Part shown: piece after piece, positions 1 through 64,000 of the stretch | Layout: each line of letters opens with the position of its first letter | Position numbering within the stretch: the stretch's first letter is position 1 | Assembly: GCA_016872285.1 (NCBI GenBank) | Contig: VGZZ01000003.1 | Coordinates: 1-64,000, forward strand | From: SAR202 cluster bacterium | GTDB lineage: Bacteria > Chloroflexota > Dehalococcoidia > Lucifugimonadales > GCA-2712585 | Direction of reading: 5' to 3' | Length of the DNA stretch: 64,000 nucleotides | Notes under the pieces: model-generated | The model's database searches: none | What the model was told of the DNA's origin: nothing | The model's input: only the letters and a program-made list of their open reading frames with translations | Program-made: the position numbers and the translations under genes

Positions 1-1379
1 CAGTCGCCAAGCAGGTTCAGAGAAAGCACCGCTATCAAAATGCAGATGCCGGGGAAGAAGGAGACCCACCATGCCGACACAATGAGCTCTCGTCCGTCCG
101 CCACCATAACACCCCAAGCCGGCGTAGGCCTGGGAATACCTGCTCCCAGGAAGCTCAAGGACGCTTCAAATAGTATAGCAGTTCCCAGCTGTAATGTGGC
201 AACAATTACCAAACTGTTGGCTACGTTGGGCAGGATATGCTTAGCTACTATGCGCATGTGGGACGCTCCGGCGACTCTTGCCCTCTGAATAAAGTCCCGG
301 TTCTTAATGCTTAAAGTTTCGCCTCTAGCTTGGCGTGCGTATACCGCCCAATACACCAACGCTATTACAGTCACCACAGTGTCGAACCCGGCCCCAACTA
401 CTGCAACGAACACCAGGGCCAGCAGTATGGAAGGTATGGCTAGTTTCATGTCCACAAACCGCATTATCACGGCGTCCACCCAACCGCCAAAGTAGCCCGC
501 AATCAGCCCAAGGCTGGTCCCTACAGCTCCAGCAAACGCAATGGCTATGAGTGATACGGATAGGGATATCCTCGCGCCGTAAATCATGCGAGTAACTTGG
601 TCCCGACCCAGCTTGTCTGTACCCAGCCAGTACCTGGACGAGCCGTCCGGCGTTATAACCCTGGCCATTCCAGAGGAAGCTAAGATTTCTTCATTGCTTC
701 CGTCTTCCTTAACATAGCGCATACTGGCTATGCCAACCACCGGCTGCACTACATTGCCGCTGGCGTCTTTCACATCAATGGCATCCTTGGCCGGCACCCC
801 CTGAAAAGTGGCTCCGAGAGGTGTAAACGTGACTTCATCGATAAAGGCGACACCCTGGGCGACGTGTTCTCCACGAATCAGCGCCCCGCCGGAATCGAAA
901 GCTATGGGATTGGTGGCGACTATGAGTCCCGGGGGAAGCTTCGATTGAATTGTACTCTCCACACCTCCCGGGTAAATCAGAGCTCGCTCTACCTTTACCT
1001 CTTTGCCATCATGTTTAAGCATGGTCAGGCCCGTCACCGGCTGGCCGTCCGCCACCAAGCTTCCTGTTTGGGTCACCCTGCCATTCGGCACCAACTGATC
1101 GTCTTTATACACCTGGATTTCATTCAAAGGTATGTCGCCCTGGAGGGCCAGCACCTTAGCCTTAATCCACGCAGGCGGCACCAGACGGTCCGTAAGGATG
1201 CCAACTTCAGGATCAAAGCCCTTGTAGTTGCTCCATACATCCGCCAGCACCGCCGGCAGGATGAGGATGAAAATTAGAATGGACAGAGGGACAAGCGGCA
1301 GTCGTCGGGCGGATTTTATGCCTTTGGCTATACGTGGCGGTGAATACCACGGTCTAGCCTTGGGAATTGCGATTGCCAT
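1..1379 (-). CDS. Peptide-type ABC transporter permease, DppC/OppC family (3' end cut by window edge)
   Basis: Inner-membrane permease subunit of a peptide/nickel-type ABC importer. The reading frame is open from ATG at 1379 to the window edge (459 codons, no stop). There is a first membrane segment at about residues 28-48. The family hallmark LGTDKLGRD is at about 251-259, followed by the multi-span permease domain with an EAA-like loop (RARVAGASHMRIVAKHILPN). Unusually, some 200 residues of predicted extracytoplasmic sequence separate the first membrane segment from LGTD; in ordinary DppC proteins I would expect a few tens. It lies 22 bases downstream of a DppB-like permease in the same operon. 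The ATPases and the solute-binding protein must lie outside the window. Family is certain; substrate is unknown. Confidence 0.88.
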   Translation of the reverse strand, partial: MAIAIPKARPWYSPPRIAKGIKSARRLPLVPLSILIFILILPAVLADVWSNYKGFDPEVGILTDRLVPPAWIKAKVLALQGDIPLNEIQVYKDDQLVPNGRVTQTGSLVADGQPVTGLTMLKHDGKEVKVERALIYPGGVESTIQSKLPPGLIVATNPIAFDSGGALIRGEHVAQGVAFIDEVTFTPLGATFQGVPAKDAIDVKDASGNVVQPVVGIASMRYVKEDGSNEEILASSGMARVITPDGSSRYWLGTDKLGRDQVTRMIYGARISLSVSLIAIAFAGAVGTSLGLIAGYFGGWVDAVIMRFVDMKLAIPSILLALVFVAVVGAGFDTVVTVIALVYWAVYARQARGETLSIKNRDFIQRARVAGASHMRIVAKHILPNVANSLVIVATLQLGTAILFEASLSFLGAGIPRPTPAWGVMVADGRELIVSAWWVSFFPGICILIAVLSLNLLGD

Positions 1380-57187: not shown

Positions 57188-57958
57188 CTACACCTGCCTC
57201 CCGCCCGCCATCGAGCCGCCGTCGGCCAGGATAGTCTCGCCGCTGATAAAGGACGAAGCGTCGGAGGCCAGGAAAAGTATAACTTCCGCCATCTCTTCCG
57301 GCTGGCCGATGCGCCCCATGGGGTGATTGGCCGCGCCGCGAGCCAACGCCTCGGCGCTCTGGCTGCTGCCCCGGGCCTGGGGCGTGTCGATTAACCCCGG
57401 CGCGACGGCGTTGACGCGAATCCCCCTGGGTGTGCACTGGCTGGCGGCCACCTTGGTCAGGTGCATCACTGCCGCCTTGCTTATCGAGTAGGCGATGGAC
57501 CGAGTCTGGCCCTGGTAACCTGTAATCGACGCGATGTTCACAATCGACCCGCTGCCCTGCTTCAGCATCTGCCGCACTGTGGACTGGGTGCAGAAAAACA
57601 ACCCCTTGAGGTTGGTGTCCATGATCTGGTCCCAGTCTCGCTCGTCCACGTCCTCTATCTCGGGCGTCAGCACCAGCACGCCCGCCGCATTGACCAGCGC
57701 ATCGATCCGACCAAACTTCTTGACTGTCGCCGACACCATGGCGCTGATTTGGTCGAGTTTGGACACGTCCGCCGCCACGCCATAGACGCTGCGGCTGATT
57801 TTTCGGCCTTCCGCCACGGTCTCGTCGATGCCTCGACGGTTGCGGTCAGCCACCATTACCTTGGCGCCCTCGCGCAAAAATAGCATGACCGTGGCTTTGC
57901 CGATACCCGAGGCCCCGCCGGTGATAAGGGCTACCTTGCCTTTAAGCCTGTCGCCCAT
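57188..57958 (-). CDS. SDR family NAD(P)-dependent oxidoreductase
   Basis: A 256-residue classical short-chain dehydrogenase: TGGASGIGKATVMLF (cofactor), NAAGVL in place of NNAG, catalytic Ser in NIASITGYQGQ, YSISK with catalytic Tyr and Lys, APGLIDTPQARGSSQSAEAL. Shares the PQARGS(S/T)QSAEA pattern with the other SDR at 58240, so they are recent paralogues. Confidence 0.93.
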   Translation of the reverse strand: MGDRLKGKVALITGGASGIGKATVMLFLREGAKVMVADRNRRGIDETVAEGRKISRSVYGVAADVSKLDQISAMVSATVKKFGRIDALVNAAGVLVLTPEIEDVDERDWDQIMDTNLKGLFFCTQSTVRQMLKQGSGSIVNIASITGYQGQTRSIAYSISKAAVMHLTKVAASQCTPRGIRVNAVAPGLIDTPQARGSSQSAEALARGAANHPMGRIGQPEEMAEVILFLASDASSFISGETILADGGSMAGGRQV

Positions 57959-58239: not shown

Positions 58240-59010
58240 TTACCTGCGGCCATAGCCGGCCCGCGCGCCGCCGTCCGCTATGTAGGTTGTGCCCGCTACG
58301 TAGGAAGCCTCGTCGGAGGCCAGGAACAGGATAACGTTGGCAATCTCTTCCGGCTGGCCGATGCGATGCATAGGGTGCCAGTTCTTCACGTTTCCAATTG
58401 CCTCGGCGCTCTGGGTGCTGCCCCGCGCCTGGGGCGTGTCCACCGACCCGGGCACTACGCAGTTGATTCGAATACCCTTGGAGGTGTACTGGCCCGCCGC
58501 CACGGAGGTTATGTGAATCACGCCCACCTTGCTAATGTTATACGGCAACGAGCGCGTCCACGCGTCCAACCCTGCTGAAGACGATATGTTGACTATGGCC
58601 CCGCCGCCGTTCTTTATCATCTCCGGTATGGCCGCCTTCATGCACAGGAAGACGCCCTTCAAGTTGATGTCGATGATTAAGTCCCAGTCCCGCTCCTCGA
58701 TCTCCGCCAAGGGAGGGCACAACTGGAGGACCGCCGCCAGGTTCACCTGCACGTCGATCTTGCCGTACTTCTTTACCGTGGCGTCTACCATTTCCTTTAC
58801 CTGGTCCCACTTAGACACGTCGACAACCACGGTGTCTACGGTTTTGGAATACTTCCCCGCCAGCTTGGCCGTCTCCTCCATCCCCGCGCGGTTGCGGTCG
58901 GCGATCATGACCTTGGCCCCTTCTTTGGCAAACAGCACCGACGTAGCCCTGCCCATGCCCGTCGCGCCGCCCACCACCAGGGCCACCTTACCCTTCAGCC
59001 TGTCACCCAT
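58240..59010 (-). CDS. SDR family NAD(P)-dependent oxidoreductase
   Basis: A 256-residue short-chain dehydrogenase: VGGATGMGRATSVLF (with VGG in place of TGG), NLAAVLQL in place of NNAG, catalytic Ser region NISSSAGLDAW, YNISK, VPGSVDTPQARGSTQSAEAIG. It is the first gene of the three-gene unit. Confidence 0.93.
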   Translation of the reverse strand: MGDRLKGKVALVVGGATGMGRATSVLFAKEGAKVMIADRNRAGMEETAKLAGKYSKTVDTVVVDVSKWDQVKEMVDATVKKYGKIDVQVNLAAVLQLCPPLAEIEERDWDLIIDINLKGVFLCMKAAIPEMIKNGGGAIVNISSSAGLDAWTRSLPYNISKVGVIHITSVAAGQYTSKGIRINCVVPGSVDTPQARGSTQSAEAIGNVKNWHPMHRIGQPEEIANVILFLASDEASYVAGTTYIADGGARAGYGRR

Positions 59011-59108: not shown

Positions 59109-59137
59109 TTGACACGCCAGCCTTATTGCATTTCAAT
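59109..59137 (+). promoter_or_regulatory. Promoter of leader peptide A/cysH
   Basis: TTGACA (59109-59114) and TTCAAT (59132-59137) separated by 17 bases, about 13 bases ahead of ATG 59150. The -35 is a perfect match; the -10 matches at four of six. Confidence 0.5.
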
Positions 59138-59149
59138 AGTCGGAACGCT

Positions 59150-59197
59150 ATGCGACTTGACGACGACCTCTTTCATTTGTGTATAAGCCCCACATAA
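59150..59197 (+). CDS. Leader peptide A upstream of cysH (putative cysteine attenuator)
   Basis: A 15-codon frame encoding MRLDDDLFHLCISPT, in the 331-base gap before cysH. The transcript is nearly leaderless. It shares DDLFHLC with the peptide at 63699-63749. After its stop comes a hairpin-terminator (59231-59261) and then cysH at 59342. Its DNA block 59162-59183 matches 63717-63738 at 19 of 22 positions, including several changes that keep the amino acid. Confidence 0.7.
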   Translation: MRLDDDLFHLCISPT

Positions 59198-59230
59198 GGG
59201 CCGTTTTGCTTTAACCAGCGTTTCGGACGC

Positions 59231-59261
59231 GCCCGCTCACTTTGTGTTGAGCGGGCTTTTT
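59231..59261 (+). terminator. Attenuator terminator before cysH
   Basis: GCCCGCTCA (59231-59239) and TGAGCGGGC (59248-59256), a perfect 9-base stem, followed by TTTTT. It lies between leader peptide A and cysH, so it probably controls readthrough. A second block, TTTCGGACGC (59221-59230), immediately before it is nearly identical to that at 63768-63777. Confidence 0.8.
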
Positions 59262-59341
59262 GTTTCCAGGGCAGCTTTTGCGTTGCGCCCTTTAAGTCGT
59301 GTCCCTTTGCCTTTATTAATTCCCAACAAGGAGTTTGTCTC

Positions 59342-60058
59342 ATGCAGACCGATTTGACCCCCGAACAGATCCATGAACTAGTCGACGGCCTCCACTTCGC
59401 TCAAAAAGTGGACCGCTCCCTAAACCTCATCGCCGAGACCTATGAAAAGTACGGCGACCGCATGGTGGTAGCCAACAGCCTGGGCAAAGACTCCCTGGTC
59501 GTCTGGCACCTGGCCAAGCGCGTCAGCCCCAAAATTGGCGGCTTTGTTGTCACCACCCGATATAAACCCAAAGAGACCGTACAGTTCATGAACGACCTGG
59601 TGGCGCAGCATCCCGAGGTGCGGGTCTTTAAAAACGACACCCCTCAGCCCGACCGCCTCTACGCCTCCGACCCCGACCAGTGCTGCTACAACCTCAAGGT
59701 CCTGCCTACTCGCTGGGCCATTGAGCAGATGAACGTCGAATGCTGGGTTACCGGCCTGCGCTGCACCGAGGGCCGCACCCGCACCAACTTCCGCGAGATC
59801 GAAGAGCTAGACCCGGGCCTGGTCAAGCTCAACCCCATTCTTCTGTGGCATGAGCGCGAGGTGTGGCAGTACCTGGCGCTGCACCAGGTGAAGGTAAACC
59901 CGCTGTATGAGCTGGGCTATCGCTCGCTAGGCTGCGCCCCCTGCACCTCCATAGCCACCGGCCCCAACGAGCGCGCCGGTCGATGGATCGGCACCAGCAA
60001 GTGCGGCGGCGAGTGCGGCATCCATACCAAGCCGCTAAAGGTGGCGGCCAAGGCTTAA
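59342..60058 (+). CDS. cysH: Assimilatory APS reductase (iron-sulfur type CysH)
   Basis: Reduces adenylyl sulfate to sulfite for cysteine synthesis. The 238-residue protein has a PP-loop-like NSLGKDSLVV (about residues 45-54). It has the [4Fe-4S] cluster cysteines typical of plant/bacterial APS reductases: Cys114-Cys115 (DQCCYN) and Cys198/Cys201 (LGCAPCTS). The catalytic cysteine is in the C-terminal CGGECGIHT (Cys225). E. coli-type PAPS reductases lack the two cysteine pairs, so APS is the likely substrate. A good SD AAGGAG and a preceding leader-peptide attenuator support regulation by sulfur status. Confidence 0.94.
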   Translation: MQTDLTPEQIHELVDGLHFAQKVDRSLNLIAETYEKYGDRMVVANSLGKDSLVVWHLAKRVSPKIGGFVVTTRYKPKETVQFMNDLVAQHPEVRVFKNDTPQPDRLYASDPDQCCYNLKVLPTRWAIEQMNVECWVTGLRCTEGRTRTNFREIEELDPGLVKLNPILLWHEREVWQYLALHQVKVNPLYELGYRSLGCAPCTSIATGPNERAGRWIGTSKCGGECGIHTKPLKVAAKA

Positions 60059-63176: not shown

Positions 63177-63575
63177 CTAAAGGGGCTTTCGCGAGCTATA
63201 ACCCTCGTTGGTGCCGTGCCACCAGTCGATACTTTTCTCGCCACGCACCCAGCATAGGAAAATCTCCCGCTGGCCGCTCATGGATGGGAAGTCCACCAGC
63301 CCCATCCTGATATCCCTGACAATGATTCCCCTGTCATTTATCTCCTCGACGACCTTGGCGGCCTGGCTCCTCAGCTCTTCTTCCTCCCGCCTGATCTCCG
63401 CCATCTCGGTGTCGATGTTGTGGTGGCCGTTTCCCCGAGTCTTGCGCTTCAGCAGCTCCGAATGTTCCTCAGTCTTCGACAGCTTCTCGATAATTGGGTC
63501 CATCTCATGGAACTTAGTTTCCAGCCAAGGTAGGGTCTGGCGGGCCTCTTCCAGGGAGAAAAGTCTTCTTCTCAT
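63177..63575 (-). CDS. DUF2203 family protein
   Basis: A 132-residue protein of the DUF2203 family: RLFSLEEARQTLPWLETKFHEMDPIIEKLS (helical), then RREEEELRSQAAKVVEEINDRGIIVRDIRMGLVDFPSMSGQREIFLCWVRGEKSIDWWHGTNEGYSSR. Function unknown. Follows queG divergently ordered on the same strand with 45 bases between them. Confidence 0.88.
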   Translation of the reverse strand: MRRRLFSLEEARQTLPWLETKFHEMDPIIEKLSKTEEHSELLKRKTRGNGHHNIDTEMAEIRREEEELRSQAAKVVEEINDRGIIVRDIRMGLVDFPSMSGQREIFLCWVRGEKSIDWWHGTNEGYSSRKPL

Positions 63576-63660: not shown

Positions 63661-63690
63661 TTGACGAAGGCGCCTTCTGGCGCATATCAT
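63661..63690 (+). promoter_or_regulatory. Promoter of leader peptide B
   Basis: TTGACG (63661-63666) and TATCAT (63685-63690) are separated by 18 bases. The predicted start point falls at or within 2 bases of ATG 63699, so the peptide transcript is leaderless. Confidence 0.6.
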
Positions 63691-63698
63691 CTAACGCA

Positions 63699-63749
63699 AT
63701 GTTTTCTCGCTCAGAAGACGACCTGTTTCATCTCTGTACCCGCCTCTAG
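63699..63749 (+). CDS. Leader peptide B (putative cysteine attenuator)
   Basis: A 16-codon frame encoding MFSRSEDDLFHLCTRL, in the 371-base gap between the DUF2203 gene and the last, cut gene. DDLFHLC is shared with peptide A upstream of cysH. After the HLC codons an 8-base hairpin (63739-63758) overlaps the stop codon, and then a strong terminator. Confidence 0.7.
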   Translation: MFSRSEDDLFHLCTRL

Positions 63750-63758
63750 AGGGGCGGG
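63739..63758 (+). promoter_or_regulatory. Hairpin overlapping the leader peptide B stop
   Basis: CCCGCCTC and GGGGCGGG pair over 8 positions (one U-G) with a TAGA loop that contains the stop codon. Probably the pause or antiterminator arm of the attenuator. In leader A the equivalent region is a shorter 4-base stem (59187-59190/59198-59201). Confidence 0.55.
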
Positions 63759-63784
63759 CTCTCCAACTTTCGGAAGCAACCTTC

Positions 63785-63818
63785 GCCCCTTTCCGTTCGT
63801 CTCGGAAAGGGGCTTTTT
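63785..63818 (+). terminator. Attenuator terminator before the last gene
   Basis: GCCCCTTTCCG (63785-63795) and CGGAAAGGGGC (63803-63813), a perfect 11-base stem, then TTTTT. Same place as the terminator at 59231-59261 relative to peptide A. Confidence 0.85.
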
Positions 63819-63946: not shown

Positions 63947-64000
63947 ATGGGATGGATTCAAAGGTTTCTTAGAGAAAAAGCTGTTAGGCCGGAACGGCGC
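63947..64000 (+). CDS. Start of a gene cut by the window end
   Basis: From ATG 63947 (GAGGT six bases upstream) an open frame MGWIQRFLREKAVRPERR runs off the end. Function unknown. Its leader (peptide B plus terminator) suggests a sulfur or cysteine gene, by analogy with cysH; inference only. Confidence 0.5.
   Translation, partial: MGWIQRFLREKAVRPERR

Follow-up and report, generated by a model that had tools for sequence, protein, structure and literature searches.

How transcription into cysH, an APS/PAPS reductase gene, is controlled in a SAR202 cluster bacterium is the question raised by a short intergenic gap on contig VGZZ01000003.1, of which the first 64,000 nucleotides (the window) were analysed. 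The gap separates divergent genes, and ahead of cysH it holds a single short leader frame with its promoter and terminator and nothing else. The initial annotation had described a TTGACA-N17-TTCAAT promoter, a frame of 15 codons and a GC stem with TTTTT in front of cysH, and each of these was found in the sequence where it had been placed. The parts of the locus are as follows.

59109..59137, plus strand: promoter TTGACA-N17-TTCAAT of the cysH leader, read from the sequence (TTGACA 59109-59114, TTCAAT 59132-59137)
59150..59197, plus strand: leader frame MRLDDDLFHLCISPT of 15 codons, near-leaderless by prediction (ATG at 59150, stop codon TAA at 59195-59197), conserved in relatives
59162..59182, plus strand: DDLFHLC codons, with the Cys codon TGT at 59180-59182, located by pattern searches
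59187..59190, plus strand: segment 1, GCCC, pairing with segment 2 (hairpin 59187-59201, -5.0 kcal/mol)
59198..59205, plus strand: segment 2, GGGCCGTT, immediately 3' of the stop codon and partner of either segment 1 or segment 3
59226..59234, plus strand: segment 3 region, GACGCGCCC, the antiterminator partner from the pairing computation, overlapping the 5' arm of the terminator
59231..59261, plus strand: intrinsic terminator 3:4 and T run, -17.2 kcal/mol
59342..60058, plus strand: cysH, APS/PAPS reductase, the proposed regulated gene (NF002537, phosphoadenylyl-sulfate reductase, above cut-off)

By sequence reading the ATG lies 12 nt past the -10 element, so the predicted 5' untranslated region of the leader is only about 5-6 nt. 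The terminator hairpin itself (GCCCGCTCAC..GTTGAGCGGGC, 59231-59256) runs directly into TTTTT, and a Shine-Dalgarno sequence, AAGGAG, is present at 59328-59333 ahead of cysH, whose putative product has CC and CxxC cysteines that fit the APS-reductase type. The neighbouring gene at 58240-59010 is on the minus strand, divergent from the leader. The terminator therefore cannot be the end of that gene, and acts only on transcripts begun in the intergenic gap. This neighbour and the ORF at 57188-57958, also on the minus strand, are similar short-chain dehydrogenases that form a closely spaced paralogous pair, both starting MGDRLKGKVAL.

Absence of the peptide frame from relatives would, according to the initial annotation, refute regulation by the leader, and a search of related cysH upstream regions was its suggested check. 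Orthologues of cysH were sought among 60 related genomes and the GTDB collection, and the two closest (~75-77% identity) both have M-R-x-x-DDLFHLC with a stop a few codons on and a terminator. Covariance model R1, whose training leaders included the window cysH leader itself, scores that leader at E=1.6e-15. This score and the independent occurrence of the arrangement in both closest orthologues indicate that the cysH leader is more than chance. No DDLFHLC leader was found at cysH loci beyond these close relatives. One distant cysH (L015, genome G027) has a Cys-rich leader, beginning VKACLCSCSCIW, with a promoter and terminator.

When 250 genomes of the order were searched with a degenerate pattern, exact DDLFHLC turned up at 20 sites spread over 13 of them, and one site is a second copy in the window; the reversed pattern, used as a control, matched once in this set. 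A 21st leader (L135) belongs to another order of the class, which brings the total to 21 leaders in 14 genomes, so the frame passes the test set for it, the motif itself varying only by synonymous changes. Copies within one genome or in close relatives are not independent. In all 21 a hairpin and a terminator come after the short frame, and 18 have a promoter of the form TTGAC[A/G/T]-16..19-T....T at 4-12 nt ahead of the start codon (identified by script, L146 also by eye). From -10 to start, DDLFHLC leaders span 4-12 nt, with 12 nt for the window cysH copy, and 39 poly-Cys leaders described below span 6-10 nt, without mapped 5' ends. In 400 genomes of the phylum, DDLFHLC gave four matches beyond the window's two, none with the leader layout. 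The shorter pattern DLFHLC was tried across the class and rejected; its matches were mostly due to chance, and those with the leader layout were all DDLFHLC.

An exact pattern can return only DDLFHLC, so ascertainment was checked in three ways. Applied order-wide, the covariance model gave no leader whose peptide was a near variant, and its next matches were poly-Cys leaders and noise (a further model, R2, lacked consensus pairs and served purely as a sequence model). When one mismatch was allowed, the pattern search of 60 genomes returned the same 20 leaders and one further match (FDLC, with a TGC codon); no leader one base off DDLFHLC was found in these genomes, this further match being unassessed. 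Outside the search pattern, R or K occurs three codons before DD in 21 of 21 leaders, encoded by CGA, CGC, CGG, AGA, AGG or AAA. The result is a ten-residue block, [RK]-[FYL]-x-D-D-L-F-H-L-C, whose final codon is the Cys codon. Its amino acids stay constant across different codons, the two Leu using five and four codons and Asp, Phe and His both of theirs. The Cys codon is TGT in every one of the 21 leaders; in the long ORFs of the window TGT makes up 28 of 160 Cys codons (17.5%). This bias is informative only in GC-rich genomes, as AT-rich relatives use TGT commonly. The window's two leaders have a single Cys codon each and no contiguous Cys run, and some other DDLFHLC leaders have two or more Cys codons, with CTCPP, CPCPP or CMCPL endings.

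A peptide conserved in its amino acids might be a small functional protein, with the terminator ending its own transcript and cysH read from another promoter. However, strict conservation stops at the Cys codon, beyond which the tails differ in length and sequence, and a promoter scan found no sigma-70-like site between the terminator and cysH. Nor would such a protein be expected to come with the segment pairing and covariation reported below, and we find this explanation barely credible. Control of cysH by a metabolite riboswitch or T-box, the frame being incidental, can be discounted almost entirely: RNA structures before sulfur genes are often riboswitches, but here conservation lies in the coding part, and no Rfam family was matched at its gathering score. 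A relaxed threshold gave only matches below cut-off, and these overlapped the terminators.

The second window copy, at 63661-63818 on the plus strand, is a complete attenuator that was absent from the initial annotation. It lies 4.5 kb downstream of the cysH switch and is made up as follows.

63661..63690, plus strand: promoter TTGACG-N18-TATCAT, from the sequence and the promoter script
63699..63749, plus strand: second leader frame MFSRSEDDLFHLCTRL, ending in a stop codon (covariance model E=1.3e-10)
63739..63758, plus strand: hairpin of segments 1:2, CCCGCCTCTAGAGGGGCGGG, -14.7 kcal/mol
63785..63818, plus strand: terminator and T run, -20.9 kcal/mol
63947..64000, plus strand: start of a 111-aa ORF, with a TauE/SafE permease next, outside the window

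The gene upstream of this leader (63177-63575) is also divergent. The permease matches TauE (PF01925, E=8e-35), and the 111-aa ORF was without a family match.

Four segments recur in the leaders, segment 1 just past the Cys codon, segment 2 at or after the stop, and segments 3 and 4 as the arms of the terminator. In permutation tests on the DDLFHLC set, cognate arms paired better than non-cognate arms for 1:2 (p=5e-5), 2:3 (p=1.5e-4) and 3:4 (p=5e-5). In the poly-Cys set each of the three pairings gave p=1e-4, with p=2e-4 for 2:3 in a reduced set of 25. The control pairings 1:3 and 1:4 had no cognate advantage in either set. Support for 2:3 was weaker in non-redundant DDLFHLC sets of ten (p=0.010 and 0.026), and the permutations leave some relatedness uncorrected. 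The initial annotation had proposed that the ribosome sets terminator readthrough, and this pairing supplies the antiterminator that it had not named; in the cysH leader the 2:3 duplex is computed at -12.9 kcal/mol.

The number of 2:3 pairs expected in DDLFHLC leaders depends on the ribosome, with 7.0 predicted when it is at the Cys codon, 1.4 without a ribosome and 0.1 when it is at the stop codon. For 20 of the 21 leaders the prediction is three or more such pairs with the ribosome at Cys, against none once it is at the stop. The poly-Cys set follows the same trend less sharply (6.1 at Cys, 2.7 free, 1.4 at the stop). The 1:2 hairpin of the window cysH copy is the weakest among the DDLFHLC set, so its antiterminator is predicted to form even without a ribosome, and control would therefore be exerted chiefly by a ribosome at the stop codon.

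Terminators were found in all leaders examined, DDLFHLC and poly-Cys, and they are strong in all DDLFHLC copies. Such uniform strength would suit a terminator that is constitutive or senses translation in general, the peptide merely coupling translation to transcription, but this gives no reason for the fixed position of Cys relative to segments 1 and 2, for the specificity of the target genes or for replacement of the peptide by a poly-Cys run, and appears very unlikely. Of the criteria for trp-type attenuation, a mutually exclusive antiterminator, 2:3, with covariation is present, and both window leaders have a terminator between leader and gene that the upstream gene cannot use. The criterion of a leader frame containing a codon for the amino acid of the operon is also met, its translation being inferred. 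That of two or more regulatory codons, which is usual in described trp/his-type attenuators (PMC1183508), is unmet by the window's two leaders, with one Cys codon each.

Weaker matches to the covariance model begin near the Cys codon, and several are leaders with a Cys run (e.g. MRILAICNCLCTCPPK and MASTILHSCICTCPPT, each followed by a stop) that precede sulfite reductase, TauE and cysteine synthase-like genes. Among 60 sulfite-reductase upstream regions of the same order, sampled without any leader pattern, 44 have a Cys-rich leader and terminator, and in 39 of these a promoter lies 6-10 nt upstream of the start codon. In 20 shuffles the mean was 0.00 with a promoter and 0.85 without, and the reverse strand gave 0 and 1. 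The sulfite reductase of the source genome (L210, G000:C24:37255-37361) has the poly-Cys leader MKLTARCSCTCLL, ending in a stop, and not DDLFHLC; this leader meets the criterion of a contiguous or near-contiguous Cys run. Three target families occur with either leader type, namely sulfite reductase, TauE and ThiF, the ThiF-type gene having a poly-Cys leader in genome G040 and DDLFHLC in G032. The CTCPP, CPCPP and CMCPL tails belong to several DDLFHLC leaders of sulfite reductases and resemble the ends of poly-Cys leaders; we infer from them that DDLFHL may have taken the place of the earlier part of a Cys run. A poly-Cys leader, MTYQIVIECICTCTREGPG, was seen by eye before a DsrE-like protein (L291, G031). 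The leader MIAEQQACSCMRPL, with its stop, lies ahead of an ABC transporter permease-like ORF (L198, G040), which may import a sulfur compound.

Recognisable sulfur or thiol families follow 15 of the 21 DDLFHLC leaders. These targets are cysH (3), sulfite reductase (5), peroxiredoxin (2), ThiF (1), the TauE operon (1), TusA followed by rhodanese and a Sulf_transp permease (TusA-rhodanese-YeeE, 2) and a cysteine-dioxygenase-type cupin (1). The others are a lipoprotein of ~450 aa (4), DUF454 (1) and a membrane protein (1), which are without a known sulfur role and are a point against the model, as is the cysteine-dioxygenase-like target, an enzyme type that is usually catabolic. The lipoprotein (L124, L135, L144, L155, L168) is DDLFHLC-led in four genomes of three families, one in another order; it has no Pfam or NCBIfam match, and DUF4395 comes after it in G014 and G050. 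It is probably a sulfur-related protein. The cysH leader belongs to a regulon, and cysteine as the signal is supported by the target genes and by the poly-Cys leaders of the same architecture before the same target families.

The signal could also be read by the peptide itself. Arrest peptides such as TnaC and ErmCL are short conserved nascent peptides that end at the stall codon. DDLFHLC likewise is a short conserved peptide ending at its presumed stall codon, and on the codon evidence it satisfies the arrest-peptide criterion of amino acids conserved independently of codon choice in a block that ends there. In an arrest-peptide switch the nascent chain would stall the ribosome on a small molecule (cysteine, sulfide or another thiol) and not through shortage of Cys-tRNA, the downstream RNA switch being the same. 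The constancy of the ten-residue block, the lack of one-base variants among leaders in the 60 genomes and a range of targets wider than cysteine synthesis all favour this. Unlike TnaC and ErmCL, however, DDLFHLC has no demonstrated ligand or stall, and a poly-Cys leader can replace it. That poly-Cys leaders share no peptide yet have the same target families and RNA layout fits sensing of Cys-tRNA, as does the invariable use of the wobble codon TGT, and we regard a small-molecule arrest as unlikely.

A cysteine-responsive, ribosome-mediated transcription attenuator is thus our preferred and very probable reading of the cysH leader, although all the evidence is computational and there are no expression data. 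The Cys-tRNA sensing put forward in the initial annotation remains a well-supported inference. The frame, its conservation, the segments, their covariation and the target genes come directly from sequence and computation. RNA polymerase would begin a few bases 5' of the AUG, and a ribosome would read the 15 codons of the leader with no Shine-Dalgarno site to guide it. Under a shortage of Cys-tRNA it would pause at the sole UGU and mask segment 1, leaving segment 2, which starts just after the stop codon, free to pair with segment 3; the terminator would then not form and cysH would be transcribed. With ample cysteine, the ribosome would reach the stop codon and mask segment 2, the 3:4 terminator would form and transcription would end before cysH. 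The TauE/SafE operon 4.5 kb downstream would be under the same switch, and the sulfite reductase of the source genome under the poly-Cys version. The transcript start, the stalling, cysteine as the signal and the direction of the response are inferred only.

A single-Cys leader with an invariant peptide was unexpected; it hints, although this is unproven, at a contribution of the peptide to the stall. It is conceivable, and we propose it only tentatively, that DDLFHLC represents a novel class of nascent-peptide regulator. The residues that precede Cys would condition the ribosome, making a single UGU as sharp a sensor of Cys-tRNA as three to five Cys codons in a row. The peptide would then replace the poly-Cys run in an otherwise identical attenuator and bring thiosulfate uptake, sulfur carriers and peroxiredoxins under cysteine control as well. 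The natural pairing of poly-Cys with single-Cys DDLFHLC leaders, even within one genome, allows one to ask whether a nascent peptide can sharpen single-codon sensing. The leaders also allow a cysteine regulon to be read from DNA for a large group of uncultured Chloroflexota, and they tag genes of unknown function, such as the ~450-aa lipoprotein with its DUF4395 neighbour, as probable sulfur genes.

No earlier description of cysteine attenuation in Chloroflexota or SAR202 was found in the open-access literature, subscription journals being outside the scope of the search. Mycobacterial leaderless polycysteine frames (Canestrari et al. 2020, doi 10.1111/mmi.14498, as cited in PMC9031893, PMC9094748 and PMC13236596) are described as cysteine-responsive attenuators that act on translation. 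They resemble the present leaders, whose leaderless start is only predicted, in being short Cys frames before sulfur or cysteine operons, with proposed sensing of Cys-tRNA through ribosome speed, whereas the leaders described here are found in Chloroflexota, use an intrinsic terminator and antiterminator, and in one version have a single Cys in a fixed peptide. Cys runs near the stop upstream of cys or cbs genes, like those of our poly-Cys leaders, have been reported in Actinobacteria (Mycobacterium, P. acnes and B. longum cbs; PMC1262725), but neither a terminator nor alternative structures were detected in those cases, the mycobacterial upstream regions lacking conserved terminator hairpins, and DDLFHLC is absent. 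The present leaders place Cys leaders that are leaderless by prediction outside Actinobacteria and couple them to an intrinsic terminator. Enterobacterial trp/his-type attenuators (PMC1183508) share the leader with a regulatory codon, segments 1-4, the 2:3 antiterminator and the 3:4 terminator; they differ from the leaders described here in that the latter respond, as we infer, to cysteine, have a predicted leaderless or near-leaderless start and mostly contain, in the DDLFHLC version, one regulatory codon and not two or more. What is new here is the lineage, the design built on a terminator and a single-Cys version, whose invariant peptide may favour stalling in its own right.
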